Assembly: GCA_035577985.1 (NCBI GenBank)
Contig: DATJZY010000188.1
Location: forward strand, 1 to 64,000
DNA: 64,000 bases
Direction: 5' to 3'
From: Candidatus Eisenbacteria bacterium
Lineage (GTDB): Bacteria > Desulfobacterota > Binatia > DP-6
Shown: positions 53,983 to 64,000 of the stretch, in pieces
Layout: each line of letters starts with the position of its first letter
Numbering within the stretch: the stretch's first letter is position 1
The notes under the pieces: model-generated
Seen by the model: only the letters and a program-made list of their open reading frames with translations
Told to the model about the DNA's origin: nothing
Database searches by the model: none
Program-made: the position numbers and the translations under genes

Positions 53983-54855
53983 GTGCGCGTGGTGATCATC
54001 GGGGCGACGGGGCAGCTCGGGCGGGAGCTGGGAGCGCGGTTGCCGCCGGGCGACACGATCGCGCTCGACCGCGCGGCCCTCGATCTGCAGGACGCGGGCT
54101 CGATCGCGACCCGGCTCGCCGACCTGCGAGCCGACCTCGTCGTCAACACGGCGGCCGACAACCGGGTGGATGCGGCCGAGCAGGACCCGAGCAGCGCGAA
54201 CGCGATCAACGCCGACGCGGTCGGCGCGCTCGCGCGGGCGGCGCACCGCGTCGGCGCCTTCCTGGTCCACACCAGCACCGACTACGTCTTCGACGGGCGA
54301 CAGCGGACGCCCTACCGCGAGGACGCGACGCCCAACCCGCTCGGGGCCTACGCGCGCTCGAAGCTCGCCGGCGAGCGCCTGTGCGCCGAGCACGCGCCGC
54401 GGCACGCCATCGTGCGGACGGCCGGGGTGTACGCGGCCGGCGGCTCGCGCGGCAAGGGCGGCAGCTTCATCGACCGCGTCCTCGCCCAGGCACGGCGCGG
54501 CCAGGCGCTACGCGTGGTCGACGACCAGGTGACCGCGCCGACGTGGGCCGGCGATCTCGCGACGGCGCTCGTGCGCCTGTTTCCCCGCTGGGTCGCGGGC
54601 GACGCGCCGCCGGGCGTCTACCACGTGACCAACGCCGGCGAGTGCACGTGGTTCGAGTTCGCGCGGGCCGCACTCGACCTCGGGGGCATCGCGGCGAGCA
54701 TCACGCCCATCACGACCGCATCGTACGCCGCGCCGGCGCCGCGGCCCGCCTACTCGGTGCTCGCCAACACGCGCCTGGCGGAGACGGGCGAGCCGCCGCT
54801 CCGGCACTGGCGCGACGCGCTCACGGCGTACCTCGGCTCGCTGCGGGCGCGCTGA
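53983..54855 (+). CDS. rfbD: dTDP-4-dehydrorhamnose reductase-like short-chain dehydrogenase
   Basis: This 290-residue protein has the NAD(P) fold GATGQLG at the N-terminus, DLVVNTAADNRVDAAEQDP, HTSTDYVFDG and the catalytic Tyr123-xxx-Lys127 (YARSK). It is the RmlD fold of the dTDP-rhamnose pathway; the other rml genes are not in the window. GTG at 53983 gives the dinucleotide motif directly; GTG at 53944 is an alternative. It likely supplies sugar for the surface-glycan genes to its right. Its end overlaps the convergent gene by 35 bp. Confidence 0.88.
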   Translation: MRVVIIGATGQLGRELGARLPPGDTIALDRAALDLQDAGSIATRLADLRADLVVNTAADNRVDAAEQDPSSANAINADAVGALARAAHRVGAFLVHTSTDYVFDGRQRTPYREDATPNPLGAYARSKLAGERLCAEHAPRHAIVRTAGVYAAGGSRGKGGSFIDRVLAQARRGQALRVVDDQVTAPTWAGDLATALVRLFPRWVAGDAPPGVYHVTNAGECTWFEFARAALDLGGIAASITPITTASYAAPAPRPAYSVLANTRLAETGEPPLRHWRDALTAYLGSLRAR

Positions 54856-55849
54856 GGCCGGCGCTCCGCAGCAGCAGCGGCTGCAGCGCCGGCCACACCA
54901 GCGCGGCCATCTTGTCCGCCCCCTGCGCGCTGAAGTGGCCGCCCAGATCGCGGAACTCCGGCTTCGTGAGCGCATCGTGCAGGTCGAGCAGGGTCCCGCC
55001 GTTCGCCTCCACCACGCGACGGAGCACCTCGACGTGCGCTGCCACCGCAGCCGGATCGTACGTGCCGCGGGCCGTCAGCCACTCCCACGGGATCGGCGTC
55101 ACCACGACCAGCGCCGGGACGCCGCGCGCGGTCGCCATCCGCACCGTTTCGCCCGCAAAGCGCACGAGCGGATGGCCCGGCGTGAGCGCGGCGGCATACC
55201 GCCCCGCGATGCCGGCCATGGCCGGGCCGAGGCGCGGCCGCTTGCTCGTCCCGAGCGCGCTCCAGAAGCCCGCCTCCTGGAAGTCGTTGCGGAGCCCCTC
55301 GGCGACCAGGAACGTCCACACGCCCCAGTCGGTGTCGATGAGCCGCGCGAGCAGCAGGCGCGGCGCCGTGAGGCCGCGGGCGGCAATGGGCAGGGTCACC
55401 GCGCGCGGCAGCTCGTCGCCGGGAATCAGCCCGGCGAGATCGGTGAAGCCGCGGTTCGTGCCGCCGGGATCGAACAGGCGCAGGTGCGCGACCAGCACCA
55501 CGACCCTCGGCCGGAGGTCCAGCACCGGCCCGATGAGGGTGTAGTAGCCGAAGAAGTCGAATCCGGGCGTGCACAGGTTGGCGCTCCGCATCCGCAGGGG
55601 GTTCAGATCCTTGCGCTGGATCACCGACGGATAGCTCGGCATCGTCAGCTCCATCAGCGTCGAGTCGCCGAGCCAGACGACGTCCAGGTGCTCGCCCTCC
55701 CACTTGGCGAGCCAGCCGGCGAGCACGCGGTGCGGATAGAGGTCCTGCCCCTTCGCGTACGCCGTGTCGCCCCACGTCGCGGTGATCCACCACGTCGCAA
55801 CGCCGAGCCCGACCAGATACGAGACCACGATGCCGACGACGCGCCGCAC
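54821..55849 (-). CDS. Membrane-anchored SGNH-like protein
   Basis: This 342-residue protein has an N-terminal membrane helix (about 5-25) and a periplasmic SGNH-like domain. Block I is VVWLGDSTLMELTMPSY (Ser63), block V is likely DLGGHFSAQG (Asp-x-x-His) and VVVTPIPWEW is a conserved strand. Its layout matches AlgJ/AlgX/PatB-type O-acetyl donors that work with an MBOAT. The start is GTG at 55849. A paralogue lies immediately upstream (12 nt). Confidence 0.82.
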   Translation of the reverse strand: MRRVVGIVVSYLVGLGVATWWITATWGDTAYAKGQDLYPHRVLAGWLAKWEGEHLDVVWLGDSTLMELTMPSYPSVIQRKDLNPLRMRSANLCTPGFDFFGYYTLIGPVLDLRPRVVVLVAHLRLFDPGGTNRGFTDLAGLIPGDELPRAVTLPIAARGLTAPRLLLARLIDTDWGVWTFLVAEGLRNDFQEAGFWSALGTSKRPRLGPAMAGIAGRYAAALTPGHPLVRFAGETVRMATARGVPALVVVTPIPWEWLTARGTYDPAAVAAHVEVLRRVVEANGGTLLDLHDALTKPEFRDLGGHFSAQGADKMAALVWPALQPLLLRSAGLSAPAASRGTP

Positions 55850-55861
55850 GCGGCGGGCGTC

Positions 55862-56884
55862 CTACTCCGTTCGCTCGACCTCCAGCAACCGGGCGATCGG
55901 CGGCCACACGAGCTCGGCCATGCGCGCGTTGCCCTGGGGCGTGAAGTGTCCGCCGGCGTCGCGCAGGAGCGACTCGGGCAGCGCATCGTGCAGATCCAGC
56001 ACGTGCCCGCCCTCGGACTCGACCACCTCGCGGACGACGGCCGCCCGCTCCGCGTACTCGCGCTCGTCGTACCAGCCCATGCCCCGCAGCCGATCGACCG
56101 GCACGGGCGTCACGACCACCAGGACGCGGGCGCCGCGCGCCACCGCACGCGCGACGGCGTCGCGCGCGAAGCGCATGAGCGGCTGGCGGGGACGGATGGG
56201 ACGCCGGTAGGCGCCGAGCACGCCGCTGCGTCCGGCCACGAAGACCTCCCACTGCGTCAGCTCGCGCGGTGCGTCCGGTCCGAGGACGCGCCAGAAGCGC
56301 TGCTCCTGGAACAGCCGGCGGGACCCTTCGGCGATGAGGAACGCGTCCTCGCCGGGGGTCGTTCGCAGCGCGCGCGCGAGCACGAGCCGCGGCGCGGTCA
56401 TGCCGCGAAAGCTGTACGGCAGCGCGAGCACGTCCGGCAGGCGCGAAAGCGGCTGCTCGGCCACGAGGTCGTTGAAGCCCCGCACGCCGCCCTCGGGGAT
56501 CGAGACGCGGAAGTTGGCGATCATCACGATCACGCGCGGACCCAGGTCGAGCGTCGCGTCGATCAGCGAGTCGTAGGCGTAGAAGTCGAACCCCATCGCC
56601 GCGAGCGCGACGCCGTGGAGTCCGCGCGGCTCGAGGTCGTCGCGGTCGACGAGCGCCGGATAGCCGACGATCTTCGGCGCGTCCATGATGCTCGAGTCGC
56701 CGAGCCACGCGACGTCCGGCCGCGGTCCGCGTGCCGCGAGCTCGATCTGGTCGAGGACCACGCGGTGCACGTAGAGCGCCTCGCCGGCGACGCGCGACGG
56801 CGCGCCGGCGACGCGCACGAGCACGGCGGCGGCGACGCCGAGCACGCCGAAGAAGGTGAGCAGGATCGCGACGACACGCGGCAT
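55862..56884 (-). CDS. Membrane-anchored SGNH-like protein, paralogue
   Basis: This 340-residue paralogue has an N-terminal helix (about 4-25), block I VAWLGDSSIMDAP (Ser64), DFYAYDSLIDATLDLGPRVIVMIANFR, VVVTPVPVDRL and DAGGHFTPQGN with the Asp-His pair. It and the 54821-55849 gene align along their length and are in tandem, probably from duplication. They sit opposite the MBOAT gene and could form two acetyl-transfer partners. Confidence 0.82.
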   Translation of the reverse strand: MPRVVAILLTFFGVLGVAAAVLVRVAGAPSRVAGEALYVHRVVLDQIELAARGPRPDVAWLGDSSIMDAPKIVGYPALVDRDDLEPRGLHGVALAAMGFDFYAYDSLIDATLDLGPRVIVMIANFRVSIPEGGVRGFNDLVAEQPLSRLPDVLALPYSFRGMTAPRLVLARALRTTPGEDAFLIAEGSRRLFQEQRFWRVLGPDAPRELTQWEVFVAGRSGVLGAYRRPIRPRQPLMRFARDAVARAVARGARVLVVVTPVPVDRLRGMGWYDEREYAERAAVVREVVESEGGHVLDLHDALPESLLRDAGGHFTPQGNARMAELVWPPIARLLEVERTE

Positions 56885-56943
56885 CAGGAATCGGCGCGCG
56901 GTTTGACGATCACCGCGCCCGCCGCCTAGAACACGCCGGCCAC

Positions 56944-58335
56944 ATGCTGTTCAACAGCCTCGAGTTCCTGATCTTCCTGCCCCTCACCCTCGTCATCCAT
57001 TACCTGTGCATCCCGCGTCGTTTCTGGCGCGGCCGCAAGATCTTCCTGGTCGTCGCCAGTTACCTCTTCTACATGTCGTGGAACCCGTTCTTCGGGCTCC
57101 TGCTGCTGGGCTCCACGCTCATCGACTACTCGCTCGGCATCGTGCTCGAGCGTACGACCGAGCCCGTACGACGGCGCCTCCTCCTGTGCGTGAGCCTCGC
57201 CTTCAACCTCGGCATGCTCGGCTACTTCAAGTACGGGAACTTCGTCGCCGACAACCTCTACCATCTGTTCGGTCTGGCGGAGCCGCCGCACTGGGACATC
57301 CTGCTGCCGATCGGCATCTCGTTCTACACCTTCGAGTCGCTCGCCTACACGATCAACGTCTACCGCGGTGAGCGCGCCTGCCGGAGCCTGCTCGACTTCG
57401 CGCTGTTCCTCTCGTTCTTCCCGCACCTGGTCGCCGGACCAATCGTGCGCCCGCGCGCCTTCATCCCGCAGCTCGCGTCCGCGCCGGTCGTGACCGGCCC
57501 CGACGTCGAGGAGGCGCTCGCCCGCATCGCCCAGGGGTTCCTGAAGAAGGTGCTGCTCGCGGACGTGCTCGGCCAGTACGTGGACCAGGTCTGGGGCGAC
57601 CTCGGCGCCTACCCCGCCGGCAACGTGCTGCTCGCATACTACGCCTACGCCTTCCAGATCTACTTCGACTTCTCGGGCTACACCGACATCGCGCTCGGCG
57701 TGAGCCGGCTCTTCGGCCTGTGGCTCCCCGAGAACTTCGAACGCCCGTATCTCGCCCAGAGCCCGCGCGAGTTCTGGCAGCGCTGGCACATCTCCCTCTC
57801 GACGTGGCTGCGCGACTACCTCTACATCTCCCTCGGCGGCAATCGCGGCTCGCGCCTGCGCACCTACGTGAACCTCCTCGTCACGATGCTGCTGGGCGGC
57901 CTATGGCACGGCGCCGCGTGGAACTTCGTCGTGTGGGGCGGCTATCACGGCACGCTGCTCGCGGGGCACCGGCTGTTCACGGACCGGCGGCCGCCCGCCG
58001 ACCGCGGGCCCGTCGCGACCGCGCTCTGCCGCATCGGCATGTTCCACCTGGTCGTGCTCGGCTGGGTGTTCTTCCGGGCGCCGTCGCTCGCCGAGAGCAT
58101 CGTGTCGCTCGGACGGCTCGCAACCCCGGGCTACATCGTGGTCCGCGCGGGCTCGGAGGCCGCGATCCTGGTCGCCGTCGGGCTCCTGCTGCACGTGGCC
58201 CCGCCGGCGGCGAAGCTGCGCGAGCGGTTCGTCGCCCTGTCGCCCGTGGCGCAGGGGCTCGCCTACAGCGCCGCGACGGTCGCCGCCTTCTTCCTGGCGC
58301 CGGCGAGCGAGCGCTTCATCTACTTCCAGTTCTGA
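56944..58335 (+). CDS. MBOAT-family O-acyltransferase
   Basis: This 463-residue multi-helix protein is of the AlgI/PatA type. It carries LPIGISFYTFESLAYTINVYRGE, FFPHLVAGPIVRPRAFIPQL, SPREFWQRWHISLSTWLRDYLYISLGG and the catalytic His in LLGGLWHGAAWNF (His322). It transfers acyl groups across the inner membrane to polysaccharide, usually with an SGNH partner, and both candidates are adjacent. Its stop lies 4 nt before the next gene. Confidence 0.92.
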   Translation: MLFNSLEFLIFLPLTLVIHYLCIPRRFWRGRKIFLVVASYLFYMSWNPFFGLLLLGSTLIDYSLGIVLERTTEPVRRRLLLCVSLAFNLGMLGYFKYGNFVADNLYHLFGLAEPPHWDILLPIGISFYTFESLAYTINVYRGERACRSLLDFALFLSFFPHLVAGPIVRPRAFIPQLASAPVVTGPDVEEALARIAQGFLKKVLLADVLGQYVDQVWGDLGAYPAGNVLLAYYAYAFQIYFDFSGYTDIALGVSRLFGLWLPENFERPYLAQSPREFWQRWHISLSTWLRDYLYISLGGNRGSRLRTYVNLLVTMLLGGLWHGAAWNFVVWGGYHGTLLAGHRLFTDRRPPADRGPVATALCRIGMFHLVVLGWVFFRAPSLAESIVSLGRLATPGYIVVRAGSEAAILVAVGLLLHVAPPAAKLRERFVALSPVAQGLAYSAATVAAFFLAPASERFIYFQF

Positions 58336-58339
58336 TCCC

Positions 58340-60178
58340 ATGTTACGCGGCCGCGGCGCGACGCTGCTCTGCCTCATCGCCATCGGGTGCGCGACCCTGT
58401 CGGTCGGCTGCCGGCGGCCGGGCGCGCCGGCCGAGGTCGTCGTCACCGACCTCGCCTATGGGGCGGTCGACGGCGTCGCGGGGCCGCTGCCGGTCGCGGA
58501 CCTCGACGGCGTGCGCGCGCTGCTCCAGCAGCGCGCCGGCACGATCGACGTGTGGCTGCGGCTGCCCGCCGATCCCGTGCTGCGCTTCCGCATCGAGCCA
58601 CCGGCTCCGGCGCCGGCGATCCGCATCACGACCACGGTGGACGGCGCGGAGCGCGAGGCCACACCGGTCCGATCCGAGAGCGGCGAATGGACGGCGCACC
58701 TCGCCGGCGGCGAAGGCGATCTCGCCCGCCTGCGCCTCGAGTCGCGGCAGCCGATGCCGATCGCGTGGCGCGACGTGCGTGTCGCCGGGACGGCCACGGC
58801 CGCGCCGCCACCGCTCGCCGCACGGCTCCGCCCGCCCGAGGGCCAGCGCATCAACGTGATCGTCGTGCTGGTGGACGCGCTGCGCGCCGACCACCTCTCG
58901 GTCTACGGCTATCCGCGCGACACCTCGCCCAACCTCGCCGCGCTCGCCGCGCACGGCGTCGTGTTCACGCAGGCCTATGCGGCCGGGCCGAGCACGCTCA
59001 ACTCGATCCCTTCGCTCTTCACGTCGCGCTACCCGTCGGAGGTCGGCGCCAAGTTCCAGCAGCTCGCGATCGTGCCGAAGACGCTCGCCGAGACGTTCCA
59101 CGACGCGGGCTACCAGACGGCGGCGTTCGTGGTGAACCGCGCCGTCCTCGGCAACCTGGGATTCGGACGCGGCTTCGACACCTACGACCATCCGATCACG
59201 TCGCCCAGCACGCAGCCGGGCCAACCGGCCCCGACCGACCGCGTCCTCGTCCGCACGGCGCTCGGATGGATCACACGTCACGCGTCGGCGCCGTTCTTCG
59301 CGTACGTGCACACGCTCGACGTGCACGATCGGCTCTATCCCCTCCAGTACCGAGGGCGCTTCGACGCCGACGGGCGCAAGCCGCCGGCCACGCCACCTCG
59401 CGCGCGCGACCGCGTCGCGCTCGGCGACTTCCACGGCGCGGCGCGCGAGATGGAGCTCGAAGCGCGCGGCAGCAATCTCACGAACGTGTACGACGAGACG
59501 ATCGCGTGGACGGACCAGCAGCTCGGCGATCTGGTGGAGGGCCTCGGCGTCCTCGGCATCCGCGATCGCACCGCGATCGTGGTCGTCGCCGACCATGGCG
59601 ACGCGCTCGGCCCCGAGGACGACGGGACGCACGGGCACGCGCACTCGCTCTACCAGGAGCTGGTGCGTGTGCCGTTCGTGATGGGGCTGCCGTGGACCGG
59701 CTCGCGCCGCGACGTGGACCAGATCGTGAGCCTGCTCGACGTCGCGCCGACGGTTGCGAGCCTCGCCGGCGTCGCGCCGTCCAGCGCGTGGGTCGGACGC
59801 GACCTCTTCGCGCCGGGCCGGCCGCTCGACGCGCCGAGCGCGCTCATGGAGCGCCTCGAGCCGCCGTGGGGTCCCAAGGCCATGATCCGCCCGGGCCTCT
59901 ACGGCGTAGCGGAATGGGGCGTGCGACGCGGCAACTGGAAGCTCCTCATCGATGGGACCCACACGCGGCTCTTCGATCTGACGTCCGACCCGAAAGAGAC
60001 GCGCGACGTCGCCGCCGAGCATCCGGACGCGGTCGCCGAGCTGCAAGCCCATGCATGGCGGCGCTCGCCGGCGCTGGCCGAAGGACGCATCCAGTCCGGC
60101 AGGCTGCCGCTCGACCTCGACGAGGAGAAGCGACGCGAGCTGCTCGACGCGCTGCGAGCGCTCGGCTACGTCGAGTGA
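58340..60178 (+). CDS. Sulfatase-family lipoprotein
   Basis: This 612-residue lipoprotein (lipobox VGC) has an N-terminal beta-domain and a sulfatase domain with NVIVVLVDALRADHLSVYGYPRDTSP, nucleophile loop STLNSIPSLFTSRYPSEVG, HTLDVHD and VVVADHGDALGPE. The modification position is Ser222 in SIPSL, so the S-x-P-S-R signature lacks its Arg. It may use Ser directly or be inactive. It is paralogous to the 42831-44858 protein. It lies in the MBOAT operon and its stop overlaps the next GTG. Confidence 0.87.
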   Translation: MLRGRGATLLCLIAIGCATLSVGCRRPGAPAEVVVTDLAYGAVDGVAGPLPVADLDGVRALLQQRAGTIDVWLRLPADPVLRFRIEPPAPAPAIRITTTVDGAEREATPVRSESGEWTAHLAGGEGDLARLRLESRQPMPIAWRDVRVAGTATAAPPPLAARLRPPEGQRINVIVVLVDALRADHLSVYGYPRDTSPNLAALAAHGVVFTQAYAAGPSTLNSIPSLFTSRYPSEVGAKFQQLAIVPKTLAETFHDAGYQTAAFVVNRAVLGNLGFGRGFDTYDHPITSPSTQPGQPAPTDRVLVRTALGWITRHASAPFFAYVHTLDVHDRLYPLQYRGRFDADGRKPPATPPRARDRVALGDFHGAAREMELEARGSNLTNVYDETIAWTDQQLGDLVEGLGVLGIRDRTAIVVVADHGDALGPEDDGTHGHAHSLYQELVRVPFVMGLPWTGSRRDVDQIVSLLDVAPTVASLAGVAPSSAWVGRDLFAPGRPLDAPSALMERLEPPWGPKAMIRPGLYGVAEWGVRRGNWKLLIDGTHTRLFDLTSDPKETRDVAAEHPDAVAELQAHAWRRSPALAEGRIQSGRLPLDLDEEKRRELLDALRALGYVE

Positions 60179-61125
60179 TCGTGGCGCGCGCGCGACTCCA
60201 TCCGTCCGCCCTCGCCTGCGTGGCGCTCGCGATCGGGATCGGCGGGTGCAGCCTCTGCCGCCGGCCCGATCCGCCCCCCGGTCCGCCCGCGGAGCGAACG
60301 GGCCCTCCGTCGCGCGTCCACCAGGTCTTCGTGCAGGGCCGCTTCGTCGAGATCACGATCGAGGTGCCGCTCGAGCCGCCCGGCCCGAAGCCGGCGGTGA
60401 TCTCGTACATCGCGGACGCGCGCGTGCCGCTGCTCGAGGCCGGCATCGTGGTGGTCAGCTACCGGCAGCACTGGGAGCTGCTGCGCGGCCTGCCGCGCGC
60501 GTCGCCGCCGCCCGACCCGAAGCCCGAGCCCCCGGCCAAGACGTACGGCACGTGGCTGCTCGCCTCGCCGACGCCGAAGACGGTGGGACAGTCGTACTTC
60601 CGCCTGATCGACGCCAACGCGACCGGCACGCTGCCCCAGGTCCTCGACGCGATGGCGGGCGAGCCCGAGATCGACCCCACGCGCATCGGCATCCTCGGCC
60701 ATTCGACCAACGCCTTCGTCGCGCTCCAGGGCGTGGCCGGACAGCCGCGCATCCGGGTGGCCGCCATCGTGGCCGGATGCGGCGACTACCACACCTTCCT
60801 GCACGAGTCGTCGCTCGCGATGAAGGGCGAGCCGCTCGACCTCGATCCCGCCTACAGCGCGTGGCTGCGCGAGCGCGAGGTCCGCTGGCATCCCCGGCGC
60901 GTCCTGCACGCGGCGGTCTTCATGGTGAACGGCCGCGACGACGACACCGTCCCGGCCGACTGCGCGCGGACCACGGCGCGCGCGCTCCGGCGCGCCTATC
61001 GCCGCCTCGGCGCGCCCGAGCGGTTCCGCTTCGTGCTGGTCGACTCCGGGCACACGTTCAACGACGCTGCGCGCGCGGAGGTCTATGCCTGGCTGCGCCG
61101 CTGGCTCGTCGACGCGCCCCGATGA
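60175..61125 (+). CDS. Alpha/beta hydrolase lipoprotein
   Basis: This 316-residue predicted lipoprotein (IGGC lipobox) has an alpha/beta hydrolase core. The nucleophile is Ser177 (ILGHSTNAF, a GxSxN variant of GxSxG). The likely acid is Asp255 (NGRDDDTVP) and the His is His293 (DSGHTF). It may be an acetyl esterase or dienelactone-hydrolase-like enzyme removing acyl groups from the glycan made by the cluster. GTG at 60175 overlaps the sulfatase stop (GTGA), and its stop overlaps the next ATG (ATGA). Confidence 0.8.
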   Translation: MIVARARLHPSALACVALAIGIGGCSLCRRPDPPPGPPAERTGPPSRVHQVFVQGRFVEITIEVPLEPPGPKPAVISYIADARVPLLEAGIVVVSYRQHWELLRGLPRASPPPDPKPEPPAKTYGTWLLASPTPKTVGQSYFRLIDANATGTLPQVLDAMAGEPEIDPTRIGILGHSTNAFVALQGVAGQPRIRVAAIVAGCGDYHTFLHESSLAMKGEPLDLDPAYSAWLREREVRWHPRRVLHAAVFMVNGRDDDTVPADCARTTARALRRAYRRLGAPERFRFVLVDSGHTFNDAARAEVYAWLRRWLVDAPR

Positions 61126-64000
61126 CCCGCGCCGTCGTCCCCATCCTGGGCGTGCTCCTCGCCCTGGCGACCGGCGAGCTGCTCGCGCGGCTGCACGGCG
61201 ATCGCCTGTGCGTGGGCGAGCCCGGCGTGTTCATGGAAGCCGACGCCCGCTTCGGATGGCGGCATCGTCCCGGCCTCAGGGGATGGGCGACCTATTGCGA
61301 CGATCGACCGATCCCGCCGAGTCCGATCGAGACCGACGACCTCGGGATGCTCGAATCGCCGCTCGACGCGACCCCATCCGGCGCCGCGCGCATGCTGGTC
61401 CTGGGCGGCGTGCTGCCCGAAGGGCTCGGCGTGCGTCCGGAGCGCCGCCTCTCCCGCGCGCTCCAGGAGCGCGCCGACGTCCGCCGCGGGCGACCGTTGC
61501 GTGTGTTCAACGCCGGGACGGGAGGCTTCGCGCTCGACAACGCGCTCCTGTGGTTTCGCGCCGAAGGGGCGCGCCTGCACCCCGACGTCGTCCTCTTGGT
61601 CGCCGACCCCGTGACCGACATGACCGCCGTCTCGCCGGCGCTCATCACCGCCGCGGCGTCGCGGCTGCCGTGGAAGCCGTATCTCCTGCTCGACGGGGAC
61701 GGGCTGCGCGTCTTCACCCCGGCGCCGTTGCAGAGCGATGCGCCGCCGCCGGTACGATCGTCGCTGCTCGACCGGCTCCAGCTCGTACGGCTCGCGCGCG
61801 GCACGGCGCCACCGCCCGGGGCGCCGACGGGGTGGCTGGTCGCCGATCCCACCGGCAGCACGACCGGCGACATGGAGGCGGACCGCGCGCGCGGGCGCGA
61901 CCTCGTGCGCGCGATCCTGCGCGTGCTCCGCGACGAGGTGCGCGCTGCGGGCGGGACACTCGTGGTGGCGATGGCGCCCCTCCCGCGCCTGCCGAACCTC
62001 GGCGAGGCGACGCCCGAGAAGCCGCTGCGATCGATCCTCATCGAGCTCGGCATCCCCACTGTCGACCTGGGCCCTCCGCTGTGGGGCATGCGCAAGCAGC
62101 TCGGTCAGCCCGCGACGATTCCGGGCACGACGCGTCTCGACGCCGGCGGCCATTTCATCGCGAGCCAGGTGATCTGGGACTTCCTCGCCCGGCGGCGCCT
62201 GCTGCCCGACGGGGTCGTACCGGTCGAGGCGCCGGGCGGCGGCAGAGTGGGCGCGTGGCGCCCGTTCCCGCGCGCGTTCGCCGCCGCGCTGTGGGCGGAT
62301 CGCGACGGGCTCGCGATCCGTCTCGCGCTCTACGGCCTGCTCGGCGTGTCGGTCACCTGGATCGCAGCGGTCCTGCCGCTCGTCGTCCGCGTCTGGCTCC
62401 TCGCCGCGACCGGCGTCGCCATGCTCGCGGCACTCGTCGACCCGCAGCTCGCCGCCGCGGCGCTCGTCTTCGCGGTCGCCTTCTACGCTGCGGTCGAATG
62501 GCTCCGCGGCCGCCTGGGCGCGATCGCGATCGCGCTCCTGATCGCGCTCGCCATCGCCGCCGCCGCGCGCTGGCTCGTCGCCGCGCGCCCGATCGAGCCG
62601 GGCGTTCGGCTCTTCGGCGCCTTCGCGACGAGCATGATCGTGCTCCGCTTGGTCGCGTACGCCGTCGATCGGCGGCGCGGCGTTCCGCATCCGACGCCGG
62701 GGCGATTCCTGGCCGCCTTCTTCTTCTTCCCGACCTTCGGCTTCGGGCCGATCGAATCGCCGGCGGCGTTGGCACCGCGGCTCGTTCCCGCCGCGGACGG
62801 TGTCGGACGATTCATCGCTCGCAGCGCCGCCGCGCTCGTCCGCGTCGCGGGCGGTGCGCTGCTGGTCGGCGCGTCGATCCACCTCTTCGGGCTCGTGACG
62901 CCGGACGTGGCCGCGTCGCGCGGCGCGGTGTTCGGCCGCTCCCGCCTGTGGCTCTGGGTGGTCGAGGCGCTGCTCCAGCTCTCGCTCTTCCAGGCCGGCT
63001 GGACGACGATCGCGCGCGGGCTCGCCGCCATGATCGGCGTCGACGTGCCGCCGAACTTCCGTGCGCCCTGGGCCGCGCGCGACCCGCGCGACTTCTGGCG
63101 GCGCTGGTACGCGACGCTGGGCGCCTGGCTCGAGGCCTACGTCGCGCAGCCGCTGCGTGCGCGCGGTCGCTCCCCCCGCCTCGCGCTCGGCGCGTCGGTC
63201 GCCATCGGGGCGGCGTGGTATGGGTGGGTGATCGTGAAGCTCTACGGGCTCGGCGGAAGTCCCCAGAAGCTCGTAGGGGGGCTCGCCGCCTTCGCGGCCG
63301 CGCAGGTCGTCCTGCTCGCCGCGCCGATCCGTGGACTCCCCGGGCGGCTCGCGGCCCTGGTCGGCGTGCCGCTCGGCTTCATCCCGCTCGTCCTGCTGCC
63401 GTGGGGCGGCGTCCGCGCCTGCCTCGGCATCGTGCGCCGCCTCGTGCTGCCGCTCGCCGTCGTCGCGTGCATCGCGCGCGGCGCCTGGGCCGAGGAGGCG
63501 ACGCGCACGGTCGACCTGGCGCGCCAGGTCGACTGCACCGGCGCCACCGACGCGACGGCGGTCGTCGCCCGCGCGCTCGAGGGCCCGAGCGGCAGGACGC
63601 TGGTCGTACCGGCCGGCTGTCGCGTCCTCGTCAGCGGTCCCGCGCCGGGCGGCGCCACGTTCACACTGCCGAGCGGGACCACGATCCGCTGCGACGATCA
63701 CGACGCGGGCTTCGTGCTCGCCCAGCGCCGGTGCGTGGGTGGCCCGACGCCCGGCGCCGCCTGCGACCGGGACGCCGGGTGCGCCGACGGCGGCCGCTGC
63801 GTCACCGCCGGCAAGGCGCCGTTCGCGCCCGACGCGAGCGCGACCTACACGCTCCTGCGCGCGGCCGAGCACGCCACCGACGCCGCCGTCGTCGGCTGCG
63901 GCGTGTTCGTGAACCAGATCGAGCCCTTCGCGCGTTGCGTCGGTGGCGCGCACGACGGACGGCCGTGCGAGGCGGCGCACGGATGCGGCGACGGCGGCAC
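61122..64000 (+). CDS. Giant SGNH-like/MBOAT-like/beta-helix fusion, open at window end
   Basis: A single frame stays open for 959 codons to the window edge. Residues about 85-370 are SGNH-like, but block I LGDSxTEG reads LGGVLPEG (Val97 for Ser); DAGGHF keeps the Asp-His pair. Residues about 395-760 are multi-helix and MBOAT-like: DPRDFWRRWYATLGAWLEAYV matches the EFWRRWHISLSxWLRDYLY signature, but the catalytic GLWHG reads AAWYGW (Tyr700 for His). From about residue 771 a signal-like helix (VRRLVLPLAVVACIARGAWA) leads into a beta-helix/pectate-lyase-like domain with Cys-rich inserts (CVGGPTPGAACDRDAGCADGG). A separate gene could start at GTG 63432 in the same frame. It overlaps the hydrolase (ATGA). 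Confidence 0.75.
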   Translation, partial: MTRAVVPILGVLLALATGELLARLHGDRLCVGEPGVFMEADARFGWRHRPGLRGWATYCDDRPIPPSPIETDDLGMLESPLDATPSGAARMLVLGGVLPEGLGVRPERRLSRALQERADVRRGRPLRVFNAGTGGFALDNALLWFRAEGARLHPDVVLLVADPVTDMTAVSPALITAAASRLPWKPYLLLDGDGLRVFTPAPLQSDAPPPVRSSLLDRLQLVRLARGTAPPPGAPTGWLVADPTGSTTGDMEADRARGRDLVRAILRVLRDEVRAAGGTLVVAMAPLPRLPNLGEATPEKPLRSILIELGIPTVDLGPPLWGMRKQLGQPATIPGTTRLDAGGHFIASQVIWDFLARRRLLPDGVVPVEAPGGGRVGAWRPFPRAFAAALWADRDGLAIRLALYGLLGVSVTWIAAVLPLVVRVWLLAATGVAMLAALVDPQLAAAALVFAVAFYAAVEWLRGRLGAIAIALLIALAIAAAARWLVAARPIEPGVRLFGAFATSMIVLRLVAYAVDRRRGVPHPTPGRFLAAFFFFPTFGFGPIESPAALAPRLVPAADGVGRFIARSAAALVRVAGGALLVGASIHLFGLVTPDVAASRGAVFGRSRLWLWVVEALLQLSLFQAGWTTIARGLAAMIGVDVPPNFRAPWAARDPRDFWRRWYATLGAWLEAYVAQPLRARGRSPRLALGASVAIGAAWYGWVIVKLYGLGGSPQKLVGGLAAFAAAQVVLLAAPIRGLPGRLAALVGVPLGFIPLVLLPWGGVRACLGIVRRLVLPLAVVACIARGAWAEEATRTVDLARQVDCTGATDATAVVARALEGPSGRTLVVPAGCRVLVSGPAPGGATFTLPSGTTIRCDDHDAGFVLAQRRCVGGPTPGAACDRDAGCADGGRCVTAGKAPFAPDASATYTLLRAAEHATDAAVVGCGVFVNQIEPFARCVGGAHDGRPCEAAHGCGDGG

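Follow-up and report, generated by a model that had tools for sequence, protein, structure and literature searches.

What could a single protein do that has the folds of a membrane acyltransferase system, lacks its catalytic residues, and continues without a break into a beta-helix? The question is raised by an open reading frame at the right-hand end of the window analysed here, the first 64000 bases (1-64000) of contig DATJZY010000188.1 (C188; 65725 bases in total) of the Candidatus Eisenbacteria bacterium draft genome GCA_035577985.1 (G000, the source genome), in which SGNH, MBOAT and Cys-rich beta-helix domains are encoded as one chain. Our tentative answer, held with somewhat less than even confidence, is that an old MBOAT-SGNH pair without the acyl relay gave rise, in this lineage alone, to a triple fusion, and that its product is a non-catalytic polytopic membrane anchor that carries the beta-helix in the periplasm, where its probable function is to bind or organize either a glycan of the envelope or the neighbouring acylation set.

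Organization of the fusion gene

The frame runs from ATG 61122 to TAG 65595, 1.6 kb past the end of the window, with no in-frame stop, and encodes 1491 amino acids in the order SGNH domain, MBOAT domain, signal-like helix, Cys-rich beta-helix and Phage_cement_2-like end. Extension of the sequence to the right bears out the first-pass annotation of the window, in which one frame entered a signal-like helix and a Cys-containing beta-helix without a stop: the frame stays open outside the window through all 1491 codons, as far as that TAG. Third-position G+C is gene-like along the whole of it (0.87-0.97). The region is 75% G+C, and the five other frames contain 0, 0, 13, 18 and 30 stops over 1490 codons; since stops are scarce in every frame at this composition, the open frame by itself is weak evidence. 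Its parts are as follows.

61122..62231, + strand: N-terminal transmembrane helix and pseudo-SGNH domain, residues 1-370 (alignment A2, structure match)
62232..63455, + strand: MBOAT domain, residues 371-778, which stops where the MBOATs of the family stop (PF03062, DltB structure match, alignment A1)
63432..63491, + strand: hydrophobic helix resembling a signal peptide, residues 771-790, bearing an AWA-EE site (sequence, hydropathy)
63492..63998 in the window, + strand: start of the Cys-rich beta-helix, which continues to TAG 65595, residues 791-1491 (PF13229, PF09956 in L059, alignment A3)

Distribution of the fusion and of its parts

Matches to the SGNH-MBOAT protein at E 1e-25 or better were found in 12 of 148 genomes of the class, and only in the families f1, to which the source genome belongs, and f6. 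At nine f6 loci SGNH and MBOAT are adjacent genes in different reading frames, mostly with a 4-base overlap. In G001, the nearest relative and a member of the same family as the source genome, the two are joined in one 790-amino-acid protein that ends at a stop and is followed by a GT2-methyltransferase gene. The MBOAT-to-beta-helix join is absent from all other matched genomes among the 148, and a 63-base junction pattern (up to three mismatches) was matched in 1 of 58 genomes, the source genome itself. The triple domain order thus appears to be confined to the source genome among those searched. A conserved triple-domain architecture is rejected, because relatives keep the parts apart, as two or three separate genes. 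The first-pass reading depended on relatives neither dividing the protein into separate genes nor retaining the catalytic Ser and His; the Ser has indeed not been retained by the family, but the parts are split in relatives and the f6 MBOATs retain both His residues.

The pseudo-SGNH domain

Two residue assignments in the first-pass annotation, Val97 for the block I Ser of the SGNH domain and Tyr700 for the catalytic His of the MBOAT domain, are exact. V97 (codon 61410-61412, in LVLGGVLPEG) occupies the block I Ser position; the block V His344 is retained, and the block III GxND is unrecognizable by eye in the SGNH alignment (A2; 10 rows, the G080 SGNH being cut by a contig end and the G086 pair, on a short contig, being unaligned). 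Pfam gave no match for the SGNH domain of the fusion protein, and searching PDB sequences with an SGNH profile gave E values no better than 0.05. The fold is recovered by structure comparison: the modelled SGNH of the family member L064 (pTM 0.62) matches GDSL esterase structures down to E 1.3e-5, and the SGNH part of the fusion protein gives weaker matches to SGNH structures, at E 0.02 and up. The domain has an SGNH fold and is without the Ser of an active hydrolase.

The residues at the block I Ser position in A2 are V, N, H, Q, H, H, E, Q, E and E, with Ser in none of the 10 family members. Since the Ser is absent from every one of these rows and all 17 outer SGNH relatives (17 of 17) have the GDS Ser, the pseudo-SGNH is old, and the loss of Ser is ancestral to the f1 and f6 members.

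The MBOAT domain

Y700 (63219-63221, in GAAWYGW) stands in place of the MBOAT catalytic His. A second signature His, that of FWRRWH, is also lost, Y663 (63108-63110, in FWRRWY) taking its place; this loss was absent from the first-pass annotation. PF03062 matches the domain at E 3e-5 and 23.9 bits, under the 27-bit cut-off, and the MBOAT fold is clear from a confident part of the structural model, which matches DltB at E 6.7e-9 (TMt 0.62); DltB is also the best PDB sequence-profile match. The description of the folds as otherwise intact holds in so far as both are recovered by structure search, but PLGGNRR is gone from the MBOAT domain, and blocks of residues are missing from the part that follows the Y700 site up to the C-terminus (A1, the MBOAT alignment of 11 rows, with the G086 pair unaligned).

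Both His residues are kept in all nine f6 rows of A1; G001 (L040) has RRWL and LWH, and the fusion RRWY and AWY. RRWH and the second His are present in 32 of 32 other MBOAT rows of alignment A4. The loss of the MBOAT His residues therefore differs in age from that of the SGNH Ser: like the fusion to the beta-helix it is recent and lineage-specific, unlike the ancient Ser loss. General decay of the fusion MBOAT is not indicated, since its identity to the f6 MBOATs (32-36%) matches that of the G001 copy (31-34%).

Loss of the acyl relay

The PatA-PatB system is a peptidoglycan O-acetyltransferase of MBOAT and SGNH proteins. In the study that describes it (PMC12148441), PatA is reported to acetylate the Tyr of a C-terminal FxYxxF motif, helped by a conserved His, and the PatB Ser to take the acetyl group from that Tyr; in the PatA model, FxYxxF lies on the last helix, which returns to the periplasm. 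The motif is missing in 10 of 10 family relatives, which end before the last helix, and in the fusion ahead of the beta-helix. Of 78 MBOAT loci outside the f1/f6 family two are cut at the 3' end, and the remaining 76 have FxYxxF (59), xxYxxF (13) or neither (4; in two of these, L086 and L122, the tail gives the impression of a frameshift on visual inspection). No DltX-like microprotein or small open reading frame ending in FxYxxF was found near the pair among frames of at least 25 amino acids at 11 loci, the sole match being the canonical MBOAT at 56944. The fusion thus has none of the three marks of a PatA/AlgI-type acyltransferase, namely the MBOAT His, FxYxxF and the SGNH Ser.

Loss of the last helix is not unique to the f1/f6 family, as four other MBOATs of the 76 also lack the motif and two further MBOATs of the source genome, on contigs C42 and C77, end at the same place as the f1/f6 MBOATs. 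The C42 protein (L158, 4905-6245) has RRWN and YHLAGG and ends in RRLLFLD; its gene lies upstream of a ketoacyl-ACP synthase III gene, with no SGNH match nearby. A Gemmataceae MBOAT (L141, 5773-6966) has a canonical WHG, and shuttle-less MBOATs can be said to occur outside the family because it too ends where the f1/f6 MBOATs end. The point of note is the pairing of shuttle-helix loss with a Ser-less SGNH partner, not helix loss alone: in the family both acyl carriers, Tyr and Ser, are absent together while f6 keeps its His residues.

It is possible, if on balance doubtful, that the f1 and f6 proteins represent a relay-less MBOAT-pseudo-SGNH system, in which the relay was dropped as a unit and the f6 MBOAT hands the acyl group directly to an acceptor held by the non-catalytic SGNH; in the source genome the assembly would have become a purely structural tether, with a helix that displays the beta-helix replacing the shuttle helix.

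The junction

The signal-like helix, VRRLVLPLAVVACIARGAWA-EE, starts at GTG 63432 and overlaps the MBOAT C-terminus in frame. With its Arg pair, hydrophobic core and A-x-A site, the segment of residues 771-790 has the appearance of a complete signal peptide. MBOATs of the family finish in, for example, PPWVGFDACWRILQRMLYLA-stop, and the fusion reads LPWGGVRACLGIVRRLVLPLAVVACIARGAWAEE at the same place. Its C-terminal MBOAT segment, LPWGGVRACLGIVRRLVL, aligns with that ending through and past 63420, and the MBOAT similarity extends beyond both 63420 and GTG 63432, straight into the signal-like helix.

A missed stop near 63420, which the first-pass annotation had put forward for checking, is disfavoured by this alignment of the family C-termini beyond the site. 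Near 63420 a single substitution could make a stop only of TGG 63402 and TGC 63420, and of none of the codons from 63423 to 63465, where the family stops align. The two other frames are free of stops from 63274 to 63910 and from 60926 to 65687, so that a single insertion or deletion would fail to terminate the MBOAT close to where such genes normally stop, and an indel artefact at the junction is likewise disfavoured. The join is probably a natural fusion, most simply accounted for by a deletion between two adjacent genes.

The beta-helix domain

Residues 771-1491 include 29 Cys. The PF13229 match (1.1e-5) reaches 25.6 bits against a cut-off of 25.9, and most of the domain lies outside the window. 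A beta-helix search matched 6 of the 148 class genomes, with clear homologues in three besides the source genome (G080, G050 and G062); this count leaves out weak matches in G096 and G133 and a second, short match in G050 (L062). The clear homologues, L059, L060 and L061, are 31-34% identical to the fusion beta-helix (A3) and share with it an N-terminal DCTGATD-like block and a Phage_cement_2-like C-terminus. There was no SGNH or MBOAT match within their loci. Where the first-pass annotation had wondered whether relatives start a separate gene at the equivalent of GTG 63432, the homologues are indeed stand-alone genes, each with its own signal peptide. The Phage_cement_2 (PF09956)-like C-terminal domain, seen in all three and at residues ~1390-1480 of the fusion, exceeds the cut-off only in L059 (25.4 versus 24 bits) and is weaker in L060, L061 and the fusion.

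Origin and possible role of the fusion

Sequence comparison shows which domains the chain contains, which residues and which motif it lacks, that its frame is fused and that relatives have separate genes; four changes can be read from it. The acyl-carrying Ser was already gone from the SGNH partner in the ancestor that the f1 and f6 members share. The MBOATs of the family end ahead of the last helix, which bears the acyl-shuttle Tyr in PatA. In family f1 the SGNH and MBOAT genes are fused, and in the source genome the MBOAT has in addition lost both His residues and runs on at its C-terminus, via the signal-like helix, into a beta-helix gene whose relatives encode separate secreted proteins. 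The product would be a polytopic anchor and not an acyltransferase. Its first transmembrane helix would give the SGNH domain a periplasmic location, the MBOAT would end on the cytoplasmic side, and the extra helix would cross back out, so that the beta-helix would hang in the periplasm at the usual site of the shuttle helix; what it binds or organizes there would probably be a glycan of the envelope, or else the intact acylation set of the adjacent genes.

The non-catalytic, membrane-tethered protein suggested in the first-pass annotation is therefore still the best reading of the source copy, but the fusion is not conserved and its parts are split in relatives. Several points weigh against the anchor interpretation. 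The fusion is known from one draft assembly of 191 contigs, its gene lies at most 4.6 kb from a contig end, and residues 1-959 at E 1e-20 match only 2 of 395 genomes of the phylum, the source genome and G001, the latter of which stops at the MBOAT. The lineage-specific loss of both His residues also fits early decay. In the 959-amino-acid model (pTM 0.50) residues 739-801 form one long low-confidence helix, so the topology proposed above is only conjectural, and signal peptidase could cut at AWA-EE and free the beta-helix.

This last point leads to an alternative that we regard as unlikely, in which the chain is a polyprotein: cleavage after AWA (residue 790) would yield a soluble periplasmic or exported beta-helix, and the SGNH-MBOAT part would be a long leader or act separately. 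The likeness of residues 771-790 to a complete signal peptide and the signal peptides of the stand-alone homologues speak for it, but a polytopic membrane protein would have to be cleaved after its last helix. The independence of the homologous genes, together with the precise coincidence of GTG 63432 with the Arg pair that opens the signal-like sequence, could also mean that the beta-helix is made also or mainly from an internal start there (or at 63444) and that the readthrough form is incidental. We consider this improbable: ribosomes on the MBOAT would still read through, and no Shine-Dalgarno-like site precedes GTG 63432, although such a site is present in just 16 of the 47 predicted genes of the window that score well.

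The fragmented single assembly, the nearness of the contig end and the separate genes in relatives would also be expected if a real stop between two genes had been lost from the consensus or two loci had been misjoined. We judge such an artefact very improbable, given that the codons from 63423 to 63465 are all more than one substitution from a stop, that no frame has a stop near enough for a single indel, and that a random misjoin would rarely meet exactly at the C-terminus of one protein and the signal peptide of another. A pseudogene in early decay, with SGNH and MBOAT relics and an accidental join to the beta-helix, is given a similarly low probability. The loss of both His residues, the PLGGNRR stretch and the MBOAT residue blocks would agree with decay, and the intact MBOAT-SGNH set next door could make the fusion gene dispensable; against this stand 1491 codons with gene-like third-position G+C and a divergence from f6 no larger than that of the G001 copy.

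Relation to known systems

Like PatA-PatB (PMC12148441), the fusion has an MBOAT and an SGNH encoded together, an N-terminal transmembrane helix on the SGNH and a similar MBOAT core; unlike them it is one chain, lacks the SGNH Ser, both MBOAT His residues and FxYxxF, and has a beta-helix at the place of the shuttle helix. The DltB-DltX-DltD system of teichoic acid D-alanylation is close in that DltB is the best structural and PDB profile match to the fusion MBOAT, but it differs from the fusion, which has no active SGNH, no MBOAT His and no FxYxxF-ending small frame found near the pair. Alginate modification by AlgI-AlgX-AlgG likewise brings an MBOAT together with a beta-helix protein and one of SGNH fold, as separate proteins with active sites; the likeness is in the combination of domain types, and the fusion has them on one chain with the SGNH and MBOAT sites lost. 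The AT3-SGNH fused acyltransferases OatA and OafB have a membrane acyltransferase and an SGNH in one polypeptide, unlike the fusion in that its membrane part is MBOAT and not AT3, its SGNH is N-terminal and not C-terminal, and its catalytic residues are missing. In PMC12148441 and PMC9558356 the SGNH that goes with an MBOAT is a protein of its own, and SGNH fusions are described for AT3 alone. A literature search, which was not exhaustive, found no description of an SGNH-MBOAT-beta-helix fusion, and the DltB paper PMC11035591, consulted on the His residues, gave no useful support. New relative to known MBOAT-SGNH systems is the triple SGNH-MBOAT-beta-helix chain.

The current model of bacterial MBOAT-SGNH acylation (PMC12148441) needs the MBOAT His, the shuttle Tyr and the SGNH Ser. 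With a family that has the gene pair and lacks the Tyr and Ser, nature offers a way to test if acylation of an external acceptor by an MBOAT can do without the relay, and also what the role of a catalytically empty SGNH partner is. The fusion gene is the extreme case, with all three residues lost, one chain, and a secreted domain in the shuttle position; its reach is limited, being known from one genome.

Gene neighbourhood

The genes upstream of the fusion gene in the window are as follows.

60175..61125, + strand: alpha/beta hydrolase, lipoprotein-like, with a Peptidase_S9 match (Pfam) and a 4-base overlap with the fusion gene
58340..60178, + strand: sulfatase-family lipoprotein-like gene (PF00884, 3.9e-54)
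56944..58335, + strand: canonical MBOAT that has RWH and LWHG, and FIYFQF as the shuttle motif at its C-terminus (PF03062, 110 bits)
54821-55849 and 55862-56884, - strand: two SGNH genes, both with the GDS Ser intact and a GGHF His (translations; Lipase_GDSL_2 matches below the cut-off)

The region from 54821 to 58335 is an apparently intact MBOAT-SGNH acylation set. Sulfatases near the pair are found in L040 and L044 too, along with GT2 and methyltransferase genes, and this setting suggests envelope glycan modification. At several f6 loci (L041-L049) a methyltransferase gene and a GT2 gene come after the MBOAT, a layout that suggests a conserved gene cluster for an envelope glycan in which the SGNH lacks its Ser.

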